Assembly (NCBI GenBank): GCA_015183035.1 | Contig: JACZZP010000009.1 | Span: forward strand, 248,001 to 312,000 | Length of the DNA: 64,000 nt | Reading direction: 5' to 3' | Source of the DNA: Meloidogyne chitwoodi | Taxonomy: Eukaryota; Nematoda; Chromadorea; Rhabditida; Meloidogynidae | Shown here: one piece after another, positions 3,506 through 54,203 of the stretch | Layout: each line of letters begins with the position of its first letter | Position numbering within the stretch: position 1 is the stretch's first letter | Notes under the pieces: generated by a model | Seen by the model: the letters and a program-made list of their open reading frames with translations, nothing else | Databases searched by the model: none | Told to the model about the DNA's origin: nothing | Translations under genes and position numbers: made by a program

Positions 3506-6500
3506 ATCTTTTTAACGTTGATCTTTAGGGTTGTTTATAATAAATACGTGCGCTTTAAAATTAAGAGAGGAAGAAAAGCATAAAGTATGTATAGGTCAAC
3601 ACAACCTACTTAATATAATATTATTTTTTAGCTATTATGCAACCAAAAGGGCATTTTTGTCTCTCCTCCCTTCAAAAATTTCAACGGAAATCTTCGTTTT
3701 TTTAATTCACCTAAATAATCTTTTCAAAAATAATTCAGAGACCTTTTTAATAAAAAAAAAAGTCGTGACCGGCAGAAAATTAAAAAAGAGGGATTTTGGG
3801 AAGATTTTAGTGGAAAAAGAGATGTGTTTATTTGACTTTATAGAACAAAGAATTTTGAGAAAAATAAAATCTTTTTTTACGTGGAATATTAAATACAAAT
3901 AAAATGTTCAAAAATATAAAAATTAAAAAAAAATTATTCTAATAGAAATGCGGCAGTCTAAAGTTAAATACCCCTTATGAGTGTCTGTGATCTCCTCAAT
4001 TCTAGCGCTCTTTTTCTTTCTCTGATCCTATTCTAATTAACTAAGAGATGGGATTACGAAATAAAAATTATAAAATATTGATAAAAAATATTAAATAAAG
4101 AAATAAAGCAAAAAAAAAATAAAAATGAAAGGAAAAATTAGGAAAGGACTAAGTAAGAGTTTTGACTAAATTTAGTGGTAAAAATTAATAAAATAGGCTT
4201 AATTATTAAATAAATTTGTACTTTAAAAATAAATAAAAATTAAATTTAGAATTTAAAAAAATCTAAAAATTTATTTAAGCAGCTTTCTCAATTTTCCAAG
4301 CTTATTATTATTTTTTTAAAATTATTAAGCTGAGACTAAGAGAAAGAAAAAAGAAAAAAATATGACTGAATGACTAACTTTGCTTTTGCTTGTTTATAAT
4401 CATGTATAAGCAGCTGCTGTTTTTGTGTTGTTGCTGTGTTCTGCCTCTGGCCGCACACAACCAGTACTTGTTTAGAATTTTTTTGGGTAGTGGGTGCGCA
4501 AAAATATTTTTTTTGAACGGTCAAAACGCGGAAAATGCAAAAAGAGTAGGGTAAGGCAAACACTTATAAAATGATCAAAAAAGGGTCTAAAATTGTGAAA
4601 TTTTGTATTTAGAACTATAAAAGTGTTGACTAACAATTCTAAAAATTTCAGAATTTTAGGTTTTATATTTCTAAAGTTATGGCTAAAAAAGTGACGAAAA
4701 ACAAAAATTTTAGAAAAACATTAAAATATTTTCGTCCATAACTTGAGAAAAACTAAACCAAAAGTTTTGAAATTTTTACCAAAGCTAGATAACACTATTA
4801 CAAATAAACATACAAAATTTCATATCTCTAACTTTTAATTTGACTTTTTTATAATTATTCGCCAAACATTACCACATCTCTCGCAGAGTTTGTTTTTCTT
4901 GCGCACAGCCAAATTAATAAACTTTTCTACAACTTGTTTTTGGGAAAAGAAATGAGAATAAATAATATATGTTTTGTTGTTTTAATTGTAAGTAGAGAAA
5001 AGTTGGAAGTGTTTGAAAAGTGTTGTTGTTGTATAAAAAGGAAAATAATAAATATAAATAAACTAGTCATTGAAGAACACAAAAACAACAAAAACAGGAA
5101 TTTATATAAAATTGATGAGAAAAGAAGAGAGGAAAAGTTTGTTGTGGAGGAAAAAAATATGGAAAAGACCGGATTTTATGTTGTTGATTTTCAAGTAAAA
5201 AAAGACGATATAATAGAGTGAGGAGGGGGTGGTTGATAGGGGATGTTAATATCACTCAGAATAAAACTCTTTAAATTATTGTACCCGTTAGAGTCTGAAA
5301 CTTTCTTTATTTTTTCTAAGACTCTAATGGATATTTTGGATAAATTAGAGTCACATAGTTTTTACTGTTGTACATTAGAGTCTGACAATTAGAGTCTTTG
5401 TTAGACAAAACTTTTACTCAAATGTACTTTTTAGAGTTGACCATTAGAGTCTGATGACACAAAAAAACGTTTTGTTGAGTCACTTGTATTTAAAAAAGGA
5501 AGAATTAATGTTAACAAAAAGATATATAAATAAGTCAGCATCAAGACATTTACGTCATCCACACGTGGAATTAATTTTAAAATTAAAAAAATTTTTTTAA
5601 ATTAGCTTTATACAGATTGCAAAATTTAATGAATAAAAAACTTTTTTAACATTTTTTAATTTTTAAATAAAATTGGAGAACAGACAATTCACCGAAATTA
5701 ACAAAATAAGGCCTTAATTTAATCAAAAAAATGTGGAGGGCATTAGAGTATGAAATTTATTAAATTTGTTGATCTTTTGGAATCCCCTAATTTTTGACAA
5801 TATTGTGCACTGTATTAATTATATCAGGTGTGAGAGGCTAGTTTTCTTTTTTCGCTAAACAAAAAAACATATTTTTAAGGCGCAGCGTCTCAGCGATCAC
5901 TACTTTGGTATATATATTATGATGAGCGAAAGCGAAACAAATTGTAAGAGGGAATAAAAAATAAAGAAAATAAACTAAAACTTGTTTTGGCTACTATTTC
6001 TGGAAGCAAACAATTGAGGAAAGAAAAAAGGACAAAAATAAGGAGGAAAATAGGGGTGTCGTTTGAGTCTATATCTCAGGAATAAATGAACCTTTAGAAA
6101 TAATTTTGGTATCATTCGATAGAGAAGAAAATTGGCTACAAAATAAGATTAGAAACAAAATTTTAGATTAGTAAATGAATGAGTTATAGAGCAAAAACTA
6201 AGATAATACTTAATTATTAAAAAAAAAATTATCTCAGAACACATAAACCTTTTGAGATAGTTTTTATATCTTTCGATAGAGAATTAAATTTAATATAAAA
6301 AATAATAAGAATATAAAATTTAAAAATTTAAATAAAATGTTAAAGGCAAAAATTTGAAGGCATACACCAAGTCTCTGGCCCATTGCATTTCAGGCATTAT
6401 ATATAACGAAGGGATACATCTTTTATAAAAAGCTTTCTATAAGTCTATAGAGGAGAGTTTTAGCTACAAAATAAGATAAAAATCATAATCTTAGCAACCC

Positions 6501-9500
6501 AAACAAAAAAGTTATGAAGAAAAAACTAAAGGTAGTTCAACTTTACAATTCTAATTAAAAATCAGCCTTCTCAAGACTCAACTGCAACTATCATAAAAAT
6601 ACAAAACAATGATTAAATTTATATATACAACTGCTTATTCTTTTTTTATTCATCTAAACAAACTAGTTTTTTTCACTTCTGCCAGTTCCCCTACCTTCCC
6701 CATTGTTCAACGTCTCTACAACAAAATTTTCTGTTCCGTCTTTTTTGTATTTTTATTTATTTTCTTCACTTTGCTCTTTTTATATATACCTCTTCAACAC
6801 TTGTGTATATATATTTTATGCTATTTTTGGGCTTTTGTTTGCAGTTTTTCCAATTCCGTTGTTTTGGTTAATTGCTTGATTGTTTTGTATGTTGAATGGA
6901 TTTTATTATGAGGAAAAGTGGAAAATTAAAAGAAAAAAGACGAAAATAAAAATTAATAAAAGAGAAAATAAAAATGGGTTTTTATGGATATTTTTAAATA
7001 ATTCTTAATTAAGTTGAAAAAAGGTAGGCTGAAGGGAACATATGTGGTAAAGCGAAAGGAACGTCTATAAAAATTTTTATAAAACAAATAAATGCGAACA
7101 TAAAATGTATTTAAATGTTAACAACCCTTTTATCTAACGTCTCAAAAATTTTTAAATTTTTAATTTATATCAAAATTTATTTTTTTAATATTTTAATATT
7201 TTTTAATTAATATTTTTAGTTATGACATCAGTTCCGATATTTTTGAAACTTTTTTAGAATTTATACTCTACAAAATAACCTTTTAAAATTTTCTTTTCAA
7301 AAAGATAAGAAATTTGATCACTATATTTATTTTTAAATTTTGAAAGTTTTGTAAATAAAAAAAGCATAGCTTTTAAGAACAAAAAACTCTAAAATTTAAT
7401 TCTTTTATTTATTTTTTTTATTTTTAAAAGCATCAATTAAAATAGTAAAAATAGTCTAACATAAGAGCTTTTAAAATGCTCAAATTTTCTTAAATTTCCC
7501 AAAATTTATTATTTTTAGTTATCACGCAAGAAGAAAAGCAACATATCCCTTACTTAAAGAATATTTTTTATGAACACTTTAAAAAACATTTGTTTTACAA
7601 ACATTTTTAAACATTTTAATAAACACTTTAAAAACATTTGTTTTATAACATGTTTTAATCATTTTCATAAACACTTTAAAAAACATTTGTTTTACAAACA
7701 TGTTTTAAACATTTTAATAAACACTAAAAAACATTTTATCTAAAAACTTATTTTTATAAAACTTAAGATTGTAAAAATAACATTAAGTTTAAGTGTATTC
7801 CTTATCCATAAATAGAAATATTTTTTACCCTTTTCTATAAATTAATTAAATATTACTTTCTCATTTGTTTTCTATCAAAAACTGAGTGAGTTGAGTTTAA
7901 TTAAATATGTATCCTTCAAATAAATTTGTTGCCATTTCTTATTTTTTCTTCCTCATTTAAAAAAATTATTTTTATTCTCATCAATATTTTAATATTAAAA
8001 AAATGTTTCAAATATTTAAGGAAATAAAGCTAATTTTAAAAGATGTGACAATTTTATGAAGAAAAATTTTATTAAATTTTATTTAGTATTATATAAGGAA
8101 AAAATAATGTTTTGAAAACTTGGTGACAGAAACAAAATAATATTTAGAACATTCTATTTAATAAAATGCCAAGAAAAAATTGTCAGAATAAAAATTTTTT
8201 TTCCTTAACTCTCTTTTTCAGTATCAAATAGTATACTTATGTTAGTAAATATTTATGTATAATATAACTTGTTTTCCGGAAAAAAGTTTACAAACATATT
8301 TACAAACAAAAATATTTTTACAACCTGAAAAACAACACTTAAAAAACATTTTTACAAACAGTCAAAACATTTGTTTATTTTTGTAGAAATATTTGTTTGT
8401 AAAAACATTTGTTTATTTCTGTAAAAACATTAATTTTGTAAAAACATTTGTTTATTAGTACAATATGTTTTAAATATTGTTTTTTGATTTTATATTTGTG
8501 TTTTGGATTTATTTCCACTGCCTTTTCCTTTATTCCTCTCTCAGCAATATTTTCCCCTACATACTAAAAAAAGTCATTTTCTCCTAATTAATCTCTCTTT
8601 GGCTTTTGGTCTGTTCAAAATTAATTAAATATTCGTCCAGCATTTTTTATGCTAATAAATTAGTCTTTGATGTCATATACTAAGTGGAAACTGTTAGTTT
8701 TCCATGAATATGTTTATCTTTCGCTTTAACTTTTTATTTGCTAAACTTTTTAATTTAATTTTATTTATAAGCAAATTTTTTCCACTTCCAAAAATAATAA
8801 AAAAACTCAATTAGTTAATTCATTATTAACCAAGACTCAAATGTGTCGTGACTTAACCTAATTGCTCCATTTTTCGTTTTTTCCCCATTTTTACCACATT
8901 TTCCATAAGGTTTTTGTTCTTTTAAATGCCACACACGATGTTTAGACTGGATAAAAAGGGAAAAATAAAAAGCCGTTATAAGGCGGAATTATTAGTAGGG
9001 GGAGACTACTGCAATAAAAGCAAGTTTACTTTAAGTTTTACTAAAATAAAACGGAAAAAAATGTGAATATATTTTATTTGGTATAACAAATTTGTCATTT
9101 AATAAAAATATCACTTTAAATTATTTATCTATTTTGGTAAAATAATTTTTTAAATTAATTTTTATATTTTTCTCCTCTATCCAAAATTTGAAAAAAAAAC
9201 ATTAAAATTTTTAAAAAATACAAAAATTAATTTTTAGGTATTTTTAAAAAATTTCAATAATAAAATTTAATAATTTTATTCCCTTATTTTTACATTCCTT
9301 TGTAAAAATTGCAAAAATATAAACTCCATCAAGCATGATTAAAATTAATTTACGCCTGAATGCTTTAAGAGTAGAAAATAAAGAATAAAAAATACATAAT
9401 ATATAAAGCTGAAACATATACACAATAAAAACTTATTTTTATTTAATTTTTGAATAGATGATAAACTTTAGAAAGATTATTGTAAAGAAAAAACATTTTC

Positions 9501-35785: not shown

Positions 35786-38700
35786 TGGATTCCAGTGACT
35801 CTTCCGATTATTCCGACGAATCTGATTTTGAAGAGGAAATTGATTATACTTTCACTGAAGACTCTTTTGGAAAAATGGAAAACGAAGATTCTGATATTGA
35901 AGTTGCTGATAGCCAAGGTTTATTTTTGTTTTTTGAGTTAATCACTTGTTAACCGGTCAATTACTAATCTCTTTATTACTCTTTTTCGAAACTCTTGAAA
36001 AATAACTCCCACTAAAGGAAAAGAGATTTTATTCAGACCTGAAATGACTAAATTATTGTTTTTAGAAGATAATGGTTCTCAATTTCAACGGGTTGTGTGG
36101 CATCACCGATTACTTCCTTACCAAGCAGAGTTAGAGAAAGAGGCGGATTATTACTTCTCTAATATCAAATCTGGATTGGCTTACTCTGTTCTCATGCGAG
36201 ATGCTCGGCCTGGCTTGGTTATTTGGGTGTATGAATTGGACAGGTTTTACATTTTAAACATTTTAAAATTTTGGGGGTTGTGTTCGATCAATTTATTTTC
36301 TTTTTCTAATTCCAATATTTTACAGATTCATTAAATTGCATTCATTTCGCTTCACAAAGCAGGATCATGTAAATATGCTCAACTTGCTTTACAATTCTCT
36401 TATATTGAAAGATCTGGATTTACGTGTGGTCAAAATACTCTGTTCTTCAATTCGCTCTCTTCTATCGTAATTTTTGATTTTTAATTTATAAAAAAATTCT
36501 CCGCAATTTTATTTTTGTGGATAAAAAAGAAAACTTTTCATATAATAAGAAATAATTTTTAGGCGAAAAACATTAATATCTCGTGAAGATTTTCAATTTG
36601 ATTGGCGCCCATTATACGATTTATATGTCCAAGTTGCTTATAAAAATCTTGAAGAGGTTTTAATTTTATTTTAATTAAATTTATATTTTATTAATTCTAG
36701 GATGGAGTCTTTTTAATCCCTGATGATATGAAGAAAATTTTGGGCGCAACGATTCTTGACTGCAATCGTTTTTTCAATAATTCTGCGACTCAGGAAATTT
36801 TGGATGAGGTTTGATTTTTATTTTTAAACTTTTTGGATCGTGCTTTCGATTCCTATTTTTATTTTTACATTAAAAAAATATTTTTTAGGTTCGCCCTTAT
36901 TTTTGTCCTTGGGATGACAGTTCAATGAGAGGATTTAAAATTTTATCAATTTTTCTGCCTACATGTCTGACTAAAGAAGAACATGATTTATTTGGAGCAA
37001 AACTTTGGATTGATGAATTGTTATTTTTTCTTAAAGCTCCAGGAGCTTTGGAAAGACAAAATATTTTTAATATTTTTGCAAGGTTTTTTTTATAATAATA
37101 TTTTTTAATTTTTTTAATTTTTCAGATTGTCAATTAACTGTCCTGGATATTTTGATTTTTCTCCTCACTTCAATTTCTTCTTTACTTGCCTTCTTTCCTC
37201 ACTAAACATTCAACTAGGCGTGGACAGAGTTGTTGCCTTAAATAGTTGTACAACAGATGTTATGTCACTTGCAAAAATTTTTGCTTATTCTTTTGGAATG
37301 TCTGATAACAAGTATATTTTTTTAATAGGCTTTGGAATATTTTTTATGTTGACCATTTGTTTAATTTTTTTCTAATAATTTTTTTTTGAAGAATTCAAGA
37401 ATGTTTTGATCAACTTTTTCTTACTCTTGAAAGCTATTTCCACCCTTCTAACACTGGAAAACATACCAAACATCTTCTCGATTTTTTGTATAAATTATGC
37501 CTTTGTTTTGTTGGCAGAGTTTCTCGAGAGCGATATACTTGTAAACGTTATGTTAATGAGGTTTTTTTTAATTTTATTTGTTTTTTTATTTTTTTATGAT
37601 TTTTAGATTCCCAAAAAGATGAACATTACAAATGTACAAATTGACAATTTTGTTAAGTCAATGATGCCATGTTTGGAATATGCTGCTTTTGCTAAACAAA
37701 AAGATGATTTTGTACCTTCAATTATTCGTTTATTAGCCTTTTTGTCGCCTGGAATTATTGTTCCTTTTGTTTTGGATTTGTAAGTTTTTATTTTGTTTAT
37801 AGTGAGTTGTGGGTTAGTGTCAGCTTTTTTATTTCTTTGAAAGGATGTTTTGGTTCATTAAATGCTAATTTGAGTCTATTGGACTTGTTTTACTTTTTTC
37901 TTTAGATTAATTTCGATTTTCATATATTTTTATAATTTTTTAAGAGTTTATCCTTCCTTGCAAACTTTAACTGAGCCTCATCGTCTAACCCAATCTCTAC
38001 AAATTCTTTCACGTGTTTGTGTGGTCATTGCGCGTGATCGTCTACCAAACATTGATGATAATGTTCAACGCTTACCTGTTAAAAGTTTGGAAGATTTTGA
38101 AGCAAACACAAAATCATATAGACGTCATGCAATTATTTTGATGAATAATTTATTGCCTGGAGTTGATGTTAATGATTTTGCAAAGTGTGGACTTGTTTTT
38201 CAGGTTTATTAATTTTTTTAAAGTTTTGGTGTTTCTTCAATTTTAGTTTTTTTTACCAAAAATACTTGAATTGTACCTTTTAAATTTTTATTTTAAAGAT
38301 ATTGTCAATATTTATGATGCTAATTCCCATCGTTGATTGTTCACAGGCCCCTCTGACTTGTACAGATTTGACACCAGAAGAAATTAATCTATGTTCTGAA
38401 ACAGCTTCTTTTGAATTTTATGTTGACGAACTAATGAGAAAAATTTTTTCTATGTTAATGTTACTTGGAAGTAGTGTGAACGATAGACAGGATTTAACAT
38501 CAACCAGAACTGCAGGAAAGAATTTAGAAGAAATAGTTATGGAAAAGGGCATTCTGATCGTTTTTCGCTCACTAGTGAAGAATTGCAGTTGTGCCTTTTA
38601 CAAGGTTTTTTTTTAATTTTTAAAATGTTTTTTGTTGGCTTAACATTTCTGGTAACCTTTTATATAAATAGGGGAACTGTTCAAAAATTAATATATATAT

Positions 38701-41700: not shown

Positions 41701-44700
41701 AATTATTTTTGGGCTTACTATTAGAGAGAGGTTTAAAAATGAATTGTTGCAAGTACTCAAGTGTCCCTTATTTTCAAATTTAGTTTAAAAAAGAAATTAA
41801 AATATAATTTTTTAGTTGTTATCTTCAAACAGCCACAGATCTTTGTCAAATATCAGCTAATAATCAACTTCATTGGCGTCACGTAGATCTTTCTAGAGCT
41901 CTATTAAGCCTTTTACTTCGTCGTGATTCAACTTTACAATCAACTATTGTTTTACATTTTTTCCAACTTTTAATAGATGATTCTATTAAAACAAGGAAAT
42001 TAGCTGTTAGTTTTTGTGGTTCTTGGCTAAAAATAAATAGACAAAAAGCAAAGAAACTTGTTAAGAATGTGATAAGTGAACCAAATACTGGTCCTGGTGC
42101 TACATGGCCAATTAAATATGGAATTAGAAAGGATAACAGGTTTTATTTATTTTTTTTAATAATTTTAATTTATTTTTTAGTTTTCTTCTTTATGATTCTG
42201 ATAATTTACCATCTGTGCAAAATGAATGGGACAACGCTGAATTTCTTCATGTAATTTTTGATTTTAAATTAAGAAAAAAGCAACAGACCTTTTTAATAAA
42301 ATTTTTGTTTTTTTAAACATTTATATTGGAAAATTAAAATTATTTAAATTAAATTTTTTAAAGTTGCCTCACTGGGGATATTATGTTTGGCCAAAAGAAT
42401 TTAAATGCTATGCACCGCCTTCACAACAAGATTGGGTTTATATTTTATTTTATGTTTTTATAAATTTATTTGTTTTTTAAAGGCTAATCGTGATTATTCT
42501 CAAATGAATGAAATTGAACATTCTATAATTGACATTTTAAAAAATAAAGAATTTTTAAACAAATTTTCCATTCTTTTTTCTTTGGAGGATGAGGTAAATT
42601 AATTTTTTATACTTTTTTCGGAAAAATACATTGTTATATTTTAATTCTGATTTTTCCGGAAAAATGTTTTTATTAAATTCTGATTTTTCCGGAAAATGTT
42701 TTAATTAATTTCCGTTTTTTCCGGAAAATGTTTTTATTAAATTCTGATTTTTCCGGAAAATGTTTTAATTAATTTCCGTTTTTTCCGGAAAATGTTTTTA
42801 TTAAATTCTGATTTTTCCGGAAAATGTTTTTATTAAATTCTGATTTATCCGGAAAAATGTTTTTATTAAATTCTGATTTTTCCGGAAAATGTTTTTATTA
42901 AATTCTGATTTTTCCGGAAAATGTTTTTATTAAATTCTGATTTTTCCGGAAAATGTTTTTATTAAATTCTGATTTATCCGGAAAAATGTTTTTATTAAAT
43001 TCTGATTTTTCCGGAAAAATGTTTTAATTAATTTCAGTTTTTTCCGGAAAAATGTTTTTATTAAATTCTGATTTTTCCTGAAAATGTTTTTATTAAATTC
43101 TGATTTTTCCTGAAAATGTTTTTATTAAATTCTGGTTTTTCTGGAAAAATTTTTCTATAATTTAATTACATATATTTTCTATTGTTTCAGAAGCAAGACA
43201 GGGAATTTGATGCAGTTAATTTTTCTTTGTTTAATGTTCGTTTTTATTATTATAATTATATGTTTATATTTTTTTTAATGTTTTAGCGTATTTTCCGCAC
43301 CTTTAATGATATTTTGCTTGTTGAATTTATTGAAATTTTGAATAATTTATTGAAAGAAACTAAAGTAACTTTTTTTTTATTTAAAATTTTTTTTAATTTT
43401 TAAAGGAAAGTTATCAAAGATTAGCATCAGAAATTATTGCTGGAATAATTTCTGGATCAAAATTTTGGAAATTTGAAAAACGCGAAAAATTGTTAACTTT
43501 TTTAATACCTACACTAGAAAAATTTTTCTTGGAAATACCTCAAGAAGCAGAAAAATATTGGGTTACATGTTTATCTACAATTGTATGTTTTTTTTAAATT
43601 TTTTTTGAATTTTTAAAACAAAAAATATTATTTTTTAGAGTTGTTGTTGTGAGCCAAGGCAGGTTGGATGGCTAATTAAATTACTTTTTCAATTAATTTA
43701 TAAACAAACAGAAATTAGTAGTCAATTGAAAAGGTTTTTTTTTTATTTAAAAAATTTAAAAAAAATTTAAATTTTTTAAAGTCGAATTTATCTTCTTCAA
43801 TCTTTACTTAACGAATTTGAATGGCGTATTCCTTCTGAATGGAAATTGTTTGCTTCTTTTTGTTTTAAATTAACTGATAATACATTTCAAAATGTTAGAA
43901 TTCGTGCTGGAAGGTTAAAAAAAATTTTTGAAATTTTTTTTAATTTTAATTTTGCTTAGTTGTATTGCTACTTGTACTCGCTTTGATTATATAAACGCTT
44001 TTTATGATGATGAAATGGATGAAAAATTTAAATTTTTGACTGTTGCTCAAGTTGTTGATGAAATTAATAAAAAGGTTTAGTAACATTTAAATTAGAGTCT
44101 GAGACATTTTTTAGCTGATTCTCAAATTAATTTTTGAATCGAAAATATGGACATTCGAGTCTTGAATTTTTATTTTTGTGTCTCAGACTCTAATGGACAA
44201 TTTTTTAATTTAATAATTTTATTTTTTAAAGATTGAACCTTTATGGAATGAAGCTTTTTGTACAACAAAAAATAATAATGACGTTTCAATAAAACATGTG
44301 GATTCTAATTCTGTCCTTGTTAATGTAGATGAATTCAAACAAGAAAAACTTAGCTTTCTAACATTAATATCTGTCCTTTATTCACTTAAATCTTTGACTG
44401 GTACATTTACTGATGTTTCAACAATTAGGCTTTTGCCTCTATTTACACATTACTCCAACGACAAAACGTTTGTTTTTTTCAGTTGTGACATTTTGTCTTT
44501 TGACCGAAATGAAATTTTTTGGTTTTTGGCGAATTGTCTATTTTTTAATTTTAGGGATGAAGAATTGAAGGCAAGCTGTATTACTCATATTATACAATAT
44601 ATGGGACTTTCTCTCATTTCTGATGATCAAATCGATGTTTTATTTGAAGTATGCCAAACAATACAGGAAAAGGGATCTTGGAAAGCTAAAATAACGTTTG

Positions 44701-45697: not shown

Positions 45698-45811
45698 TTT
45701 ATATATGTTAAGATGTAATTTTTTTATTTTATTGTTTATAGTATATTGATAATAAATTTGTATATATATATATATTATATTGTTTTAAAAATAATATATC
45801 GATTTCATTGA

Positions 45812-47462
45812 GATGTTCACCGATGTTTTTTCACGCATCTCACCGATCTTTTTTAACCGATGTTTTTTCACCGATCTTTTTCACCGATGTTTTTTCACCG
45901 ATCTCACCGATGTTTTTTCACCGATCTTTATCACCGATGTTTTTCACCGATCTCACCGATGTTTTTTCACCGATCTTTTTCACCGATGTTTTTTCACCGA
46001 TGTTTTTTCACCGATCTCACCGATGTTTTTCAGCGATGTTTTTCAGCGATATTTTCGGCGATATTTTTCAGCGATGTTTTTCAGCGATCTTTTTCAGCGA
46101 TGTTTTTCAGCGATATTTTCGGCGATGTTTTTCAGCGATATTTTCGGCGATGTTTTTCAGCTATCTTTTCGGCGATATTTTTCAGCGATCTTTTTCAGCG
46201 ATGTTTTTCACCGATCTTTATCACCGATGTTTTTCACCGATCTCACCGATGTTTTTTCACCGATCTTTTTCACCGATGTTTTTTCACCGATCTCACCGAT
46301 GTTTTTCAGCGATGTTTTTCAGCGATATTTTCGGCGATATTTTTCAGCGATGTTTTTCAGCGATCTTTTTCAGCGATGTTTTTCAGCGATATTTTCGGCG
46401 ATGTTTTTCAGCGATATTTTCGGCGATGTTTTTCAGCTATCTTTTCGGCGATATTTTTCATCGATGTTTTTCAGCGATCTTTTTCGGCGATCTTTTTCAG
46501 CGATGTTTTTCAGCGATATTTTCGGCGATGTTTTTCAGCTATCTTTTCGGCGATATTTTTCAGCGATCTTTTTCAGCGATGTTTTTCAGCGATCTTTTTC
46601 AGCGATGTTTTTCAGCGATCTTTTTCAGCGATGTTTTTCAGCGATCTTTTTCAGCGATGTTTTTCAGCGATCTTTTTCAGCGATGTTTTTCAGCGATCTT
46701 TTTCAGCGATGTTTTTCAGCGATCTTTTTCAGCGATGTTTTTCAGCGATCTTTTTCAGCGATGTTTTTCAGCGATATTTTCGGCGATGTTTTTCAGCTAT
46801 CTTTTCGGCGATATTTTTCAGCGATGTTTTTCAGCTATCTTTTCGGCGATATTTTTCAGCGATGTTTTTCAGCGATATTTTCGGCGATGTTTTTCAGCGA
46901 TATTTTCGGCGATGTTTTTCAGCTATCTTTTCGGCGATATTTTTCAGCGATCTTTTTCGGCGATCTTTTTCAGCGATGTTTTTCAGCGATATTTTCGGCG
47001 ATATTTTTCAGCGATGTTTTTCAGCGATATTTTCGGCGATGTTTTTCAGCTATCTTTTCGGCGATATTTTTCAGCGATGTTTTTCAGCTATCTTTTCGGC
47101 GATATTTTTCAGCGATGTTTTTCAGCGATATTTTCGGCGATATTTTTCAGCGATGTTTTTCAGCGATATTTTCGGCGATATTTTTCAGCGATGTTTTTCA
47201 GCGATATTTTCGGCGATGTTTTTCAGCTATCTTTTCGGCGATATTTTTCAGCGATGTTTTTCAGCTATCTTTTCGGCGATATTTTTCAGCGATGTTTTTC
47301 AGCTATCTTTTCGGCGATCTTTTTCAGCGATGTTTTTCAGCTATCTTTTCGGCGATATTTTTCAGCGATGTTTTTCAGCTATCTTTTCGGCGATCTTTTT
47401 CAGCGATGTTTTTCAGCTATCTTTTCGGCGATATTTTTCAGCGATCTTTTTCAGCGATGTTG
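45812..47462. repeat. Simple satellite, 13-14-bp unit (CAGCGATGTTTTT)
   Basis: About 1.65 kb of tandem 12-14-bp units starting about 115 bp after the PSME4 stop. Two unit classes occur: CACCGAT(G/C)TTTTTT in blocks at 45820-46030 and 46205-46300, and CAGCGAT(G/C/A)TTTTT or CGGCGATATTTTT elsewhere. Later copies form a higher-order pattern of about 38 bp (CAGC-TATCTTTTCGGC-GATATTTTT). All three plus-strand frames stay open over more than 1.6 kb because the unit lacks stops; this is a compositional artefact, and no signal, domain or splice context supports a protein. Confidence 0.92.
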
Positions 47463-47616
47463 GCCACCTTATATAAATTAATATTAAATTTTCCATAGGC
47501 AATACTCAAAACAAGATTTGTAAAATGCAAGTTTTAAAATATAAAATTATTTACTTTAATACTATAAAATTTAAGTAAAAAGTCCATCACAGCTAATTAT
47601 TAAAATCATCAATTCT

Positions 47617-50553
47617 TCATAAGGCAGGTAGTAGCATGGAGCGACACTCTCCAAAACCAATTCTTTTGTTTGTTTTCTGATTGAAACAAAATCCTAAAAA
47701 ACAGAAGAAAATTAATGAGTTTATTACTGAAAAATACAAAATCAGAATTTCCGGAAAACAAGAATGTTTGAATTAAATTCTAATTTTCCGGAAAAACATT
47801 AATTCTGATTTTTAAAAAACAAATTCTGATTTTCCAGAAAAACATAAAAATCATTTTCTCTACCTGTTATGGTCACTTCATCACCATCAACTAAAAATTT
47901 TCTTGTCTGACCACTATCACCCAATTTAACTGGATTTTGACCTCGCCAAGAAAGTTCTAATAAACAGCCTAATGAGTCCGGAGTCTAAAAAAATAAAATT
48001 ATAACATTTAATTTAATTTTACTAACAGGTCCACTAATTGTTCCAGAACCCATCAAATCGCCTGGGCGGATATTGCAGCCATTACTTGTTTGATGAGCTA
48101 ATTGTTGTTTAATTGTCCAATATAAATGTTTCAAATTTGTTTTGGAAAGAATGTACTCGCTTTCACTGCCACGAGCTAAAATTTTAAAGAAAAAATTGAA
48201 AATTTAAATTAAATAAAAGGTTTTAGTCATTAAATCATCTAGGCGATTTATTGCTTGCCTGGCGATTTAATGGCTGAACCGGAATGTTCAAATAAAATTC
48301 TTATTTTTCCGGAAAACACAAAATGTTTAAATAAAATTCTGATTTTCCGGAAAACACAAAATGTTCAAATAAAATTCTGGTTTTTCCGGAAAACACAAAA
48401 TGTTTAAATAAAATTCTGATTTTTCCGGAAAACATAAAATGTTTAAATAAAATTCTGATTTTTCCGGAAAACACAAAATGTTCAAATAAAATTCTGGTTT
48501 TTCCGGAAAACACAAAATGTTTAAATAAAATTCTGATTTTTCCGGAAAACACAAAATGTTTAAATAAAATTCTGATTTTTCCGGAAAACACAAAATGTTC
48601 AAATAAAATTCTGGTTTTTCCGGAAAACACAAAATGTTTAAATAAAATTCTGATTTTCCGGAAAACACAAAATGTTTAAATAAAATTCTGATTTACTGAA
48701 AAAACAGAATGTTTAAATAAAATTCTGATTTTCAGAAAAAAACAGATGTTTAAATAAAATTCTGGTTTTTAGAAAAAACAAAATAAAATTTAAAAAAATA
48801 AAAGATTAATTACGTTTTATAGAAACAGCCAATTCAATATCAAAAGTGTAGTTATCAGAATGAAACAGATGTTTCATTGGAGGAGGATTTTGTATTGGAT
48901 TAGCAACAATAAAATGACCAAGTGCTTCCATTGTAACAACCCAAGGCGAAATACTTGTAGTAAAACTTTTACTTAAAAAAGGTCCAAGTGGAACATATTC
49001 CCATTTTTGAATATCTCTTGCTAAAAAAAATAAAATAATTGAAAAATTAAAATTATTTTAAAAAATATATTCAAATTACCACTCCAATCATTCATTAAAA
49101 CCATTCCAAATATATGTTCTTCAACTTTTTCAATAGTAATAGGCTTCCCTAATTCATTCTCTGATCCACCAACAAAAAATGCCATTTCTAACTCAAAATC
49201 CAGTAATTTACTTGGAATAAATTCTGGCTCCTTTGCTAAATAGAATTAAAAATAAATTTAATAAAAAAAATCAAAAAATCAAACCTTCATCAGATTTGAC
49301 TTGCCCCCATGGACGATGAACTGGAACTCCTGAAACAATTATACTTGATGCCCTTCCATGATAACCAACAGGAAGGTGTTTCCTAAAATAAATGATTCTT
49401 AAAGTTTCTCACAATTTTAAAAAACATTTAGGACTTGCTTCTGAAACATGCTTCAGTTTCTAAACATTTTAAAAACATGCTACATTTTTAAAAAATGTTT
49501 CTAAAAATATTTTGCTTCCGATACTTCAAAAAATATTTTTGAATCATGCTTCATAATTAATTATATAATACCAATTCTCAAAAAGTGCATTTTCCTTTCC
49601 TCTAAACATTGTTCCAACATTTGTTGCGTGATATATAGATGAATAAAAGTCAGTATAATCACCTTAAAAGATAATTTTAATTTATAAAAATATTTAAAAA
49701 ACCTATTTTTGCTGGTAAATGCATTTTAGCATTGCTTCTTTTTACCAGAACACGTTTCCTATGAAAGTGAAATATTTAATAAAATTTAGAAGATTGTTCT
49801 AAATTTTCCGGAAAACACAAAAATATAAATTGAAAAATAACGGTTATAAAATACAGGTTTTATTTAATGCTGGTATTCCGGAAAATACAAAATGTTTTGC
49901 TAAAAATTTAGTTAGAGAAAAAACAACAACACAGAATGTTTAAATAAAATTCTGGTTTATATAAAAACACAAAATGTTTATAAAATTCTGGTTTATAAAA
50001 AAACACAAAATGTTTATAAAATTTATGTTTTAAAAACACAAAATGTTTAAATAAAATTCTGGTTTTTAGAAAAACACAAAATGTTTAAATAAAATTCTGG
50101 TTTTTAGAAAAACACAATGTTTATAAAATTAACCTTAAATTTTCATCGTCTTTTAAGACAGCATTATTAATTGAAAGAAGAGACTGCAATGTTTCCCTTG
50201 CTTCTACCCAAGCAGCGCGTTCGAGTCCCATAAAAGCGTTCAAATATTCCCAAAATAAAACAAAATTAATTTTATTAAAATAATTAAAAAAACCTCAGAA
50301 AATACATGTTGATTTTTAGAAAGTAAAGGACCATTAAATAAATATTTCAACAAAGACAAATCCAAAATTTCTTCTCCAATAGCTACACCAATTCTTTTCT
50401 TTTCCTAAAAAAATAAAATAATTTCAAAAAAAAATAAAATAAATTAAAAAATTAAAATTTTACATTGTCTTGTGTAGAGAAAATACCATAAGGCAAATTA
50501 TCAATTGTAAAGTCACAATTTTCTGGAATTTTTATAAACGTTTCTAGCTTCAT
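47617..50553 (-). CDS. fah-1: Fumarylacetoacetase (FAH)
   Basis: The last enzyme of tyrosine catabolism; it hydrolyses 4-fumarylacetoacetate to fumarate and acetoacetate. It has about 11 small exons from ATG at 50553. In order: [63 protein letters not shown], then the metal/substrate blocks [99 protein letters not shown], and the terminal [15 protein letters not shown]. The catalytic Asp/Glu ligands and the Lys of FLSKSF are present. The stop was chosen in the frame giving the family-like end GFGEC...LLPAL; another frame of the last exon is also open but does not match. One intron holds a 39-bp minisatellite. Confidence 0.95.
48290..48730. repeat. 39-bp minisatellite in a fumarylacetoacetase intron
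   Basis: About 11 copies of a 39-bp unit containing ATTCTGATTTTTCCGGAAAA, then CACAAAATGTTTAAATAAA. Because 39 is divisible by three and the unit lacks stops, two minus-strand frames stay open (13-residue repeat), which I reject as coding. The first 20 bases of the unit are the same module as the 32-bp array in PSME4, with a different spacer. Confidence 0.9.
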
Positions 50554-50913
50554 TCTTTTTTATAAAAAATATTAAAACAAAAAAAAATTAATTAAAAAAA
50601 AAAATAAATAAAAATTGATAAAAATTCACAACTTTTTTAACATTTTTTAGATTAAAAATATTTATTTTTTAATAATAGGTAAAATATATTAAACTTGTTT
50701 TTTCATTTTGGAAAGATATGGACATAAAGAAAAAATAATATATAATAATAGAAGGAAAAAAAGAAAATTGTGTATAAAGAAGCGAAAATATATCAAGGAA
50801 AAATGAAAAAAAAATAAATATGCATAGCTAGAGAGAAAAATCAATCGGTCTCAGACATTTGCGCAGACCGACATTAGAGTTTAAAAAATAAATTTTTTAA
50901 TTAGAAAAAAACC

Positions 50914-51218
50914 TGGTAAAAGGCACAACTGCAATTCTTCACTAATGAGCGAAAGACAATCAGAATGCTCTTTTCCATAACAATTTCTTCAAGATTTTTT
51001 CCAGCAGTTCTTGTAGAAGTTAAATCTTGTCGATCATTCACACTGCTTACAAGTAACATTAACATTGCAAAAATTTTTCTCATCAATTCGTCGACAAACA
51101 ATTCAAAAGAAGCAGTTACAGAACATAAATCAACTTCATCTGGTGTCAAATCTTTACAAGTCAGAGGGGCCTGTGAACAATCAACGATTGGAATTAGCAT
51201 CATTAATATTGACAATAT
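50914..51218 (-). pseudogene. PSME4 exon copy, left arm of hairpin
   Basis: This minus-strand copy matches PSME4 exon 38299-38604 across its full 102 codons and keeps the reading frame ([20 protein letters not shown] to [10 protein letters not shown]). It also keeps an acceptor-like TTTAAAG and a donor CAG|GTTTTT. About ten amino-acid differences from the source are seen. There are no flanking PSME4 exons, so it cannot make the protein alone. Confidence 0.85.
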
Positions 51219-51266
51219 CTTTAAAATAAAAATTTAAAAGATATGGTTTTAATATTTTTATTTTAA

Positions 51267-51572
51267 AGATATTATCAATATTTATGATGATAATTCCTAT
51301 CGCTGATTGTTCACAAGCTCCTCTTATTTGTAAAGATTTGACAAAAGAAGAAATTAATCTATGTTCTGAAACAGCTTTTTTTGAATTTTATATTGACGAA
51401 CTGATGAGAAAAATTTTTTCAATGTTAATATTACTTGGGAGCAGTGTGAATGATCGACAAGATTTAACTTCTACAAGAACTGCAGGAAAGAATCTTGAAG
51501 AAATTGTTATGGAAAAAGGCATTTTGATTGTCTTTCGCTCACTGGTGAAAAATTGAAATTGTGCCTTTTACC
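51267..51572 (+). pseudogene. PSME4 exon copy, right arm of hairpin
   Basis: This plus-strand copy of the same exon (IIPIADCSQAPLICKDLTKE onward) has an in-frame stop where the source has Asn-Cys (AATTGA for AATTGC). It shares with the left arm several substitutions absent from the source, for example CKDLT and the silent changes in the block around [20 protein letters not shown]. This indicates that the two arms descend from one copy. Confidence 0.85.
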
Positions 51573-51789
51573 AGGTTTTTTTCTAATTAAAAAATTTATT
51601 TTTTAAACTCTAATATCGGTCTGCGCAAATGTCTGCACCAACTTAAATAATCTCACCAAAAAACTTTCTCTCCCCAACCTAAGCATATCCTCTCTTTAAC
51701 AAACAAAAAATATAGATGCAAAAATACTGTTTTTTTGTAGCTGCAACGATTCCATGTTTTCTAAAAGATTCAAAAAGGCTTCTCTTTTT

Positions 51790-54203
51790 TTAATCATTCA
51801 TCTCATTTTGAGCCATTAATTCGGTACCACGAGCACGATTACGAGCAAAATCTTCAAAGATTAGATCTTCATCTTCAAAACTAAATAATAAATTTTAATT
51901 AAAAAAAAATTAATTAAAAAATTTTAATAAACGTAGAAGAGGTTCTCTCTCCAATTAGAAAGAGAATTTTTTGTTTAAACCTGTCAAATTGAATGAGATC
52001 AACATCAGCCGTTTGGTCATCATCATCATTTTCGTTATTATTATTTTTTTGTTGTTTTTGTTCTTCTCCTCTTTCAGCAATATTTCCAACAATACAATTA
52101 TCAACAACAATTTGTTTATTATTTGGTGTTATTATTGTTTTATTATTTAATTCTGTCAAATTATTTTCTGGATGTGTTAGAGTAAAAGGTAATTCAGCTG
52201 CAAGTTCTCCTCCTAATGCCCCAGCAATTAAAAGTCGGATTTTGACCTTATAGGCCACTATGATTCCGAGATTTTCTCTAACAGAATGCTAAAAAAGAAA
52301 TTAATTAAAAAATAAATTAATTATTTATTAATTAAAAAAGGTATTTATGTCACACTTTTATCATTCTTTTAAACTCAAAATTTTGATTATAATTTATTTT
52401 AAATTAAAAGACGTGTTTTATTCCCTATTTTTTAAATTAAAAAAAAATATTATTAAAAATTACTGAAAGTGTCGCAAAGGTAGTAGAAGAGGCAAGATTT
52501 GTATCTTCATGTTTTAATTGTCCATCCAACGCAAGTCCTCTTTTATCTTTGTTTTTGGCAAGTAGAGGACAGAGGGTATAAATTTTAGAAAGTGTAGAGC
52601 CCGGTCCTACAGGAAATCCTTCGCTTTAAAAAATAAAATTAATTTTCTAAATTCTATAAAAATTAAAAAAACCATGATTCAATTTTATCAACATCACAAG
52701 TATATTGAGCAGTAGTAAAAATACAAATATCCGCTACTTGTGAAACAGAAACTTTAATCTTTTTGACTGTTTTATTGCTGTTGTTTTGCACATGGACATT
52801 TACATTAATTGATTCTCCATGATAATACATCTAAATTTATTTTTTTATTAATTTTATTATAATATTTTTCAGAATAAATCTGATAATTTTTCTGATTTAA
52901 TTCTGTTAATTTTCAGAATAATTCTGATAATTTTCAGAATAATTCTGAAAATTTTTCAGAATAATTCTGACAATTTTTCAGAATAAATTCTGATAATTTT
53001 TCAGAATAAATTCTGATTTAATTCTGATTATATTTCAATTAAAATTCTGAAAAAAACCTCTTTATCAAGAGAAGCTTCCAAATGAAGTCCTCCAGGACTT
53101 ATAATAAATTCTTTAGTAACATCAATCATTGGTTGAGGTCTTTCAATTTGTGGAGAATAAGTGAGCTTTCTAATGGCAAGACGAACAGAATTACTTAAAA
53201 AAAATATATTTTAAAAAATTAGAAAATTTTAAAATAAAACTGTTTTTTCGGTTTTTCCTGAGAATCTCCACCACCAACAATAGTTTTAACTTCATAATCT
53301 ACTCCACAAGGTTTACCCGTGTCTCCTTGAGCAGGCTATAAACAATAAAAAAAATAATAATAAAAATGGAATATTAAAAAAAACCTGTAATGTAACTGAA
53401 GAAGCTGAATTTGGTGGAATTTCAAACCAAAAAGGAAAAGCATTATTTCCCAATTTCTTCTTTAAACGTTCTTGTAGCCTTGTCATTGAACGAATATTTG
53501 ATACAGTTGAATTAGGTGGATAAATCTTTAAATATTTTTTTTTAATTTTTATATAGAAAAGTTCGTAAAATTGTAAGTTTTCAATTTTAAAAGTTTTGGT
53601 CAATTCTTAGAGTATCTCCAAAAATTAAAAACAAAAAACCTGAACAGATTGTGAGATCAAATCCTTGCGAAATGTAAGTCCTAAAACATCCAAATCTTCT
53701 CGACCATAACGAAAAGCTGCTAACAATTGAACTGAGACCTTCTTTTTCCCCGCGATATATTCATCATCGATTAAAACCATTCCATCTGAAAAAGGGTAAT
53801 TTTGGTATAGTGAAGAATTTTAGTTTAAACAGAAAAGTGGGGGAAAGGTTCAACACTCACTGATGGAAAATTATTTAAATTTAACAAATAAATTTTGCTT
53901 TTTAGATTATTCTTATGGCTTTGATGCCCTTTTAAACATTAAAATATATACAAGAAATCAGCGAAAAATCGTAAGAAGCTGATTATTCTCATAAAATATT
54001 CTTTTCTAACTTTTATATTTATAAAATAATACCAATTAAATCAACACTTTCTCCTCGATCCAAAAAATCACGTTTTCCAAGATAGGTAGTAATTTTTCCA
54101 TTTGGTGAAGTTTTCTTGAAGACTCTTTAAAATTATATTAAATTTAAAATAATTTAAAAGACAAAATAAACCTTGTTCCAGACTTCTTCTCATCGTCATC
54201 CAT
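51790..54203 (-). CDS. arr-1: Beta-arrestin
   Basis: A scaffold that binds phosphorylated GPCRs, stops G-protein coupling and links receptors to clathrin-mediated endocytosis. About ten exons start from [20 protein letters not shown]. The N-domain has [52 protein letters not shown] and [12 protein letters not shown]; the polar-core strand is CGVDYEVK; the C-domain begins [14 protein letters not shown], with the phosphate-sensing Arg, then [20 protein letters not shown]. The C-domain loop is expanded by an Asn/Gln/Asp-rich insertion ([16 protein letters not shown]). It is followed by a clathrin box LIQFD and an AP-2 motif FEDFARNR (FxxFxxxR). Both endocytic motifs are visible, so it should act as a canonical non-visual arrestin. 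One intron holds a TTTTTCAGAATAAATTCTGA array (52866-53056). Confidence 0.95.
52866..53056. repeat. CAGAATAAATTCTGAT repeat array in an arrestin intron
   Basis: Seven to eight irregular copies of TTTTTCAGAATAAATTCTGATAA. Each copy is itself palindromic (CAGAATnnATTCTG). It uses the TTCTGAT half of the module seen in the PSME4 and fumarylacetoacetase arrays. Confidence 0.75.

Follow-up and report, generated by a model that had tools for sequence, protein, structure and literature searches.

By anatomy, the nearest known counterpart of the locus described here is the Drosophila hpRNA gene Dsim-hp58, an inverted exon fragment that lies one gene away from its progenitor (PMC10317233, in excerpt). 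The hairpin of the root-knot nematode Meloidogyne chitwoodi is unlike Dsim-hp58 in that it is known from DNA alone, in that it belongs to an animal with RdRP genes, and in that its source gene is conserved; by analogy, we regard it as a candidate hpRNA gene only. Foldback inversions and short-spacer inverted duplications share with it a long inverted duplication, and a hairpin-mediated origin has been described for them in yeast (PMC7467729, in excerpt); here, however, a small copied exon stands at a new place, and the mechanism is one that we infer. In mouse oocytes, too, gene-derived copies feed an siRNA pathway, yielding pseudogene-derived endo-siRNAs (PMC3213143, in excerpt); in that system the small RNAs are known and there are antisense pseudogene transcripts, whereas M. 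chitwoodi presents an exon palindrome seen as DNA. Among the literature matches listed, no title or abstract opening describes an exon-derived hairpin gene in a nematode.

The hairpin lies within a stretch of 64,000 nucleotides (the window, G000:C30:248001-312000), in which positions are counted from the first letter. Its parts, and the exon from which they derive, are as follows.

38258..38633, plus strand: full source stretch matched by the arms, consisting of the exon, 41 nt of upstream intron and 29 nt of downstream intron
38299..38604, plus strand: source exon of PSME4, 102 codons; the arms are the only further copies found in the assembly
50852..51239, minus strand: left arm, 388 nt, repeating the PSME4 exon and part of each adjoining intron, with the minus strand as sense
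50852..50927, no strand: outer end of the left arm, 76 nt, 99% identical to its counterpart in the right arm, 51560-51635
50913-51218, minus strand: exon part of the left arm, with an open frame and with the AG before and GT after it retained
51234..51253, no strand: spacer or loop, the 20 nt enclosed by the longest perfect inner stem
51248..51635, plus strand: right arm, 388 nt, the second, inverted copy, with the plus strand as sense
51269-51574, plus strand: exon part of the right arm, with one stop, at codon 96
51560..51635, no strand: outer end of the right arm, within a 77-nt tract that has one difference

An inverted-repeat search places the two arms 8 nt apart, with 90% complementarity over their 388 nt; compared without gaps, they differ at 40 of 388 positions. 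The inverted PSME4-exon structure is real, and the original prediction of two exon copies facing each other is confirmed as an observation. The gap of about 15 nt given there falls between the 8 nt of the arm match and the 20 nt inside the longest perfect stem. The source match of the left arm starts at 38258 and that of the right arm at 38278, such that the left arm extends 20 nt deeper into the upstream intron. The outermost 33 nt, common to both arms, have no match in the source.

The gene order is PSME4 (plus strand), fumarylacetoacetase (minus), hairpin, arrestin (minus). The hairpin takes up 784 of the roughly 1,236 nt that separate the two minus-strand genes, the fumarylacetoacetase start ATG at 50553 and the arrestin stop at 51790-51792 both having been placed by eye. 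Pfam matches over the cut-off (FAA_hydrolase in all three minus-strand fumarylacetoacetase pieces, Arrestin_N in one arrestin piece; a match to Arrestin_C is below cut-off) bear out the flanking minus-strand beta-arrestin and fumarylacetoacetase genes that had been named. One end of the hairpin lies about 300 nt before the fumarylacetoacetase start codon, and the left arm, on the strand of that gene, carries an open exon with splice-like ends; a long hairpin or spare exon in this 5′ region might thus act in cis on fumarylacetoacetase transcription or splicing. However, we found nothing specific to such an element in the sequence, and we consider it very improbable. In the wider neighbourhood, tandem repeats with spacings of 13 and 25 nt and their sums occupy about 1.8 kb just downstream of the PSME4 exons (45742-47521 in the window), with all three plus-strand frames open. 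Units of about 32 and 39 nt are repeated in tandem at 42568-43212 and 48206-48787, beside or within PSME4 and fumarylacetoacetase; the two arrays share a motif with the core CCGGAAAA in inverted orientation. Piwi-domain (Argonaute) matches occur on the same contig about 40 kb before the window (G000:C30:205862-207815).

The identity of the source gene comes from protein comparisons. Three joined exons, taken from frames 37607-37780, 37874-38209 and 38284-38613, were compared with PDB chains; those named proteasome activator complex subunit 4 match with a best E value of 5.5e-27, and the source exon falls within the best-matching stretch of that comparison. A longer model of PSME4 (PA200) has 12 homologues, which are nematode PSME4 proteins, the best six being from Meloidogyne. 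In Pfam, the preceding PSME4 exon matches HEAT_PSME4_mid over the cut-off, the source exon by itself has no match to PSME4, and the one PSME4 match of the left arm falls below the cut-off (E 0.24). Among the homologues, M. graminicola contributes three PSME4 entries (P0003, P0004 and P0005), of which two closely resemble each other and the third stands apart. Over 38258-38633, the left arm is 87.5% and the right arm 88.0% identical to the source, in agreement with the proposal that the arms are inverted PSME4 exon copies with intron flanks, derived from an exon 12 kb away. Within the exon, the identities that the original prediction had called for are 272/306 (left arm to source), 270/306 (right arm to source) and 269/306 (arm to arm).

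We searched the M. chitwoodi assembly (47,477,280 bases in 30 contigs, with simple repeats and very common words skipped) and found no copy in these 47.5 Mb besides the hairpin and its source; in a search with the same words skipped, the outer 81 nt of the arms were found here alone. A second, diverged PSME4 copy elsewhere in the genome, suggested earlier as a possible source, was likewise not found in the assembly; a second PSME4 haplotype may have been collapsed in it. Three other identities were rejected. A processed retrocopy would have had its introns removed, and here a single exon keeps intron flanks on both sides. A mobile foldback or TIR element is not indicated, the hairpin and its outer ends having been found nowhere else in these searches apart from the source. 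Nor is this a known RNA family: of 12 Rfam matches up to E 1, none exceeds its gathering score, the best being MIR821 (E 1.9e-14, 80.6 bits against a gathering score of 249). A search with the left-arm frame for a hairpin in other species gave one match in six candidates, a 111-aa metagenome protein on a contig of 1,138 bases, whose sequence suggests a normal PSME4 exon with the frame running on into the adjoining intron.

A minus-strand RNA of the hairpin is predicted to form 362 pairs in register (348 Watson-Crick and 14 G-U), upholding at the level of prediction the long RNA duplex proposed for this locus; for a plus-strand RNA, 348 Watson-Crick and nine G-U pairs are possible in register. 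The predicted fold of the minus-strand transcript has an energy of -515 kcal/mol, compared with -145 ± 6.8 for 20 dinucleotide shuffles (z -54.7), and as modelled it is far beyond chance. The duplex between the arms includes five perfect runs of at least 19 nt, the longest of 56 nt.

We next consider how the exon copies relate to the source. Among the variable exon sites, 19 set the right arm apart, 17 the left arm and 16 the source, counts that leave out one exon site with three different bases. At the sites where the arms agree against the source, 13 of 16 differences are synonymous (about four expected under neutrality) and three change an amino acid; neutral placement predicts 11.8 changing differences of 16, and none of 20,000 simulations gave as few as three. 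Since the substitutions common to both arms are mostly synonymous, they arose in coding sequence and not in a dead copy. Judged from their pattern, they would have arisen in PSME4 itself after the copying, or in a donor allele. Codon 22, which encodes K in five of six relatives (R in the sixth) and in both arms, and T in the source, is a clear case of a change in the source itself. The original prediction had read the shared substitutions as the mark of a copy that was made first and then inverted; the 13 synonymous differences of 16 and the change of codon 22 in the source speak against that reading.

The changes specific to one arm present a different picture. The right-arm stop, eight further codon changes specific to the right arm and ten specific to the left arm support decay, although up to three of the ten left-arm changes look ancestral by comparison with relatives. 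In all, about 1.8 stops are expected in the arms and one is seen, in the right arm, so that the open left-arm frame is no evidence of function. However, 20 of 36 arm-specific changes alter an amino acid where 27.1 are expected, fewer than under neutrality (p 0.006), suggesting that these changes are mostly decay, yet not wholly neutral. Given this deficit and the fully open left frame, part of the divergence between the arms probably arose in a coding state. Conversion from functional alleles, or an origin in them, accounts for this constraint better than the decay of a single dead copy would on its own.

The order of the three classes of site along the exon is clustered (26 runs against 35.6 expected; runs test, p 0.0036). 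Upstream of exon nt 134 the source stands apart at one of 23 variable sites, downstream of it at 15 of 29 (maximum chi-square, p 0.003). For right-arm against left-arm sites alone, clustering is weak (runs p 0.31, chi-square p 0.051), and the patchiness therefore depends on the positions that set the source apart. The 77-nt tract with a single difference, at the arms' outer end, has p 0.035 under a uniform spread. Individual codons follow conflicting histories. Codon 41 is F in all six relatives and the left arm, and Y in the source and right arm; codon 30 is D in four of six relatives (E and Q in the others) and the left arm, and N in the source and right arm; codon 5 behaves like codons 30 and 41, in four of five relatives. 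At codons 30 and 41, the residue common to the source and right arm and absent from the left looks derived on this comparison, although the left-arm residues at codons 30, 41 and 5 may be chance reversions. Codon 102 would count as an arm-shared change only if K is ancestral (K in two of six relatives, N in four). No single tree fits these sites well, whereas tracts of conversion, or alleles that differ in age, would explain them. Thus, the simple tree of copying followed by inversion gives way to a mosaic, and gene conversion, which the original prediction had offered as its alternative, stands as one of the two readings that are left.

The other reading is that each arm stems from a PSME4 allele or haplotype of its own, the two having already diverged when they were joined in opposite orientations; their differences would then be largely old allelic ones, making gene conversion unnecessary. 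The shortage of amino-acid changes among arm-specific differences (20 of 36, 27.1 expected) would follow, as would the apparently derived residues that the source and right arm have in common at codon 30, at codon 41 and probably also at codon 5, where the left arm has the relatives' commoner residue; moreover, heterozygosity is reportedly high in the close relative M. fallax, at 3.31-6.95% (PMC12002905, in excerpt). However, independent origins would not give the arms a common outer sequence that is absent from the source and 99% alike over the outer 76 nt, and the assembly search found no second PSME4 copy. We consider an origin from two alleles unlikely, though not negligibly so.

The reading that we favour, and hold to be probable, is a foldback-type inverted duplication that is now decaying, that has exchanged tracts, and that would yield double-stranded RNA if transcribed. 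A single PSME4 exon with pieces of both its introns would have been copied at the DNA level into the interval between arrestin and fumarylacetoacetase; that one exon is present with cut introns at both ends indicates a DNA-level copy and speaks against an mRNA retrocopy. A foldback or template-switch inverted duplication would then have turned this copy into a palindrome with a short spacer. The short spacer and the 20-nt asymmetry of the inner breakpoint fit a foldback junction, as if a strand had folded back and copied itself. The 33 outer nt common to the arms fit either a copy put in place before the inversion or a flank copied from arm to arm later. The arms would since have largely decayed as non-coding sequence, with tracts swapped between them and perhaps also with the source gene or a second allele. 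The hairpin could be transcribed by read-through from arrestin or as a fumarylacetoacetase leader, for example; the resulting RNA would be a duplex of about 360 bp usable by Dicer, and any effect on PSME4 a by-product.

We estimated how common such structures are in a sample of 23 stretches of 10 kb (230 kb), with a threshold of arms of at least 300 nt at 85% identity or more; the hairpin window, chosen for its hairpin, was not counted, and a palindrome spanning the border of a stretch would be missed. In 21 of the 23 stretches there is no palindrome at this threshold. The other two gave one each.

G000:C1:526407-527782 (6407-7782 of stretch L018): palindrome, arms 678 nt, 100% identical, 20 nt apart
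G000:C1:531076-532617 (1076-2617 of stretch L019): palindrome, arms 765 nt, 97% identical, 12 nt apart

Note that the spacer of the L018 palindrome is 20 nt by arm match and 28 nt in the inner-stem count, which ends a few pairs early. The two palindromes lie 3.3 kb apart on contig C1. Both have diverged relatives in the genome, mostly on the same contig (at least 69 matches for L018, at least 48 for L019), an F-box gene adjoins that of L019, and both may be built from pieces of an amplified F-box-associated family. They resemble the PSME4 hairpin in their long arms, short spacers and use of sequence with relatives elsewhere in the genome; they differ from it in their higher arm identity and in having many diverged relatives rather than a single-copy gene as kin. 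Each could be a recent inverted duplication; L018, with its 100% identity, might instead be an assembly artefact. Long palindromes with short spacers seem to recur in this genome, in a small sample whose two examples are neighbours. Two further stretches contain inverted arms of about 120 nt, about 350 nt apart (L014, 4365-4486 and 4834-4954, 98%; L021, 9397-9515 and 9881-10000, 91%), which resemble the terminal repeats of small mobile elements.

False palindromes can occur in long-read assemblies. The PSME4 hairpin might itself be such an artefact, a palindrome read through a missed adapter, and the L018 palindrome, its arms 100% identical over 678 nt, possibly is one. However, the arms of the PSME4 hairpin differ from each other at 40 of 388 positions, and each differs from the source too. 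A missed-adapter artefact is hardly likely given these differences; the assembly error that had been named in advance as a refutation is disfavoured, and we give it next to no weight.

Finally, we consider whether the hairpin could work in RNA interference. The genome encodes RdRP domains at two loci and has one Dicer_dimer match; its 38 Piwi-domain matches are exon pieces and not genes. No ADAR-domain match was found in the genome, nor in any of 14 control genomes, hence its absence is not demonstrated. In the tables of PMC3110158, dcr-1 is marked for M. incognita and not for M. hapla, and rde-4 and rrf-3 for neither. For the clade IV nematode Globodera pallida, PMC4323106 (in excerpt) reports 5′-triphosphate RNAs of 22-26 nt starting with G, along with RNAs of 23 nt that it attributes to Dicer. 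The same excerpt, in which Meloidogyne is unnamed, gives piRNAs as not detected outside clade V. From the domains that are encoded, a hairpin RNA could enter a Dicer- and RdRP-type pathway, and silencing of PSME4 would be possible.

A working hpRNA gene would be transcribed, diced to siRNAs of about 22-23 nt and amplified by RdRP, lowering PSME4 mRNA. The locus has a long inverted repeat able to form one predicted RNA duplex, arms that agree with a protein-coding exon at 272 and 270 of its 306 positions, five perfect runs of at least 19 nt between the arms, RNAi-domain genes in the same genome, and an anatomy near that of Dsim-hp58 (PMC10317233, in excerpt). Full complementarity to the target at siRNA length is also present, but sparse: just 23 of 286 exon 21-mers in the left arm, and 12 of 286 in the right, match PSME4 exactly. 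Furthermore, the 40 arm differences do not clearly point to selection for pairing of the duplex, G-U pairs accounting for 14 on the minus strand and nine on the plus strand. In addition, novel D. simulans hpRNAs prefer de novo X-linked genes as targets, according to the same excerpt, whereas PSME4 is old and conserved. A working hpRNA gene is, in our judgement, a rather poor prospect. Less probable still is a self-targeting form, in which RdRP-amplified siRNAs would tune PSME4, exchange with PSME4 would keep the arms matching, and the hairpin would be one of many gene-derived hairpins arising continually in this genome. From the sequence, a function is more likely absent than specific.

Should the hairpin be transcribed, a nematode outside clade V that has RdRP genes would possess an equivalent of Drosophila's young, exon-derived hpRNA genes, and the locus would show the birth of single-gene hairpins. 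Should short-spacer palindromes prove common in so small a genome, one could count how often they arise and what becomes of them.
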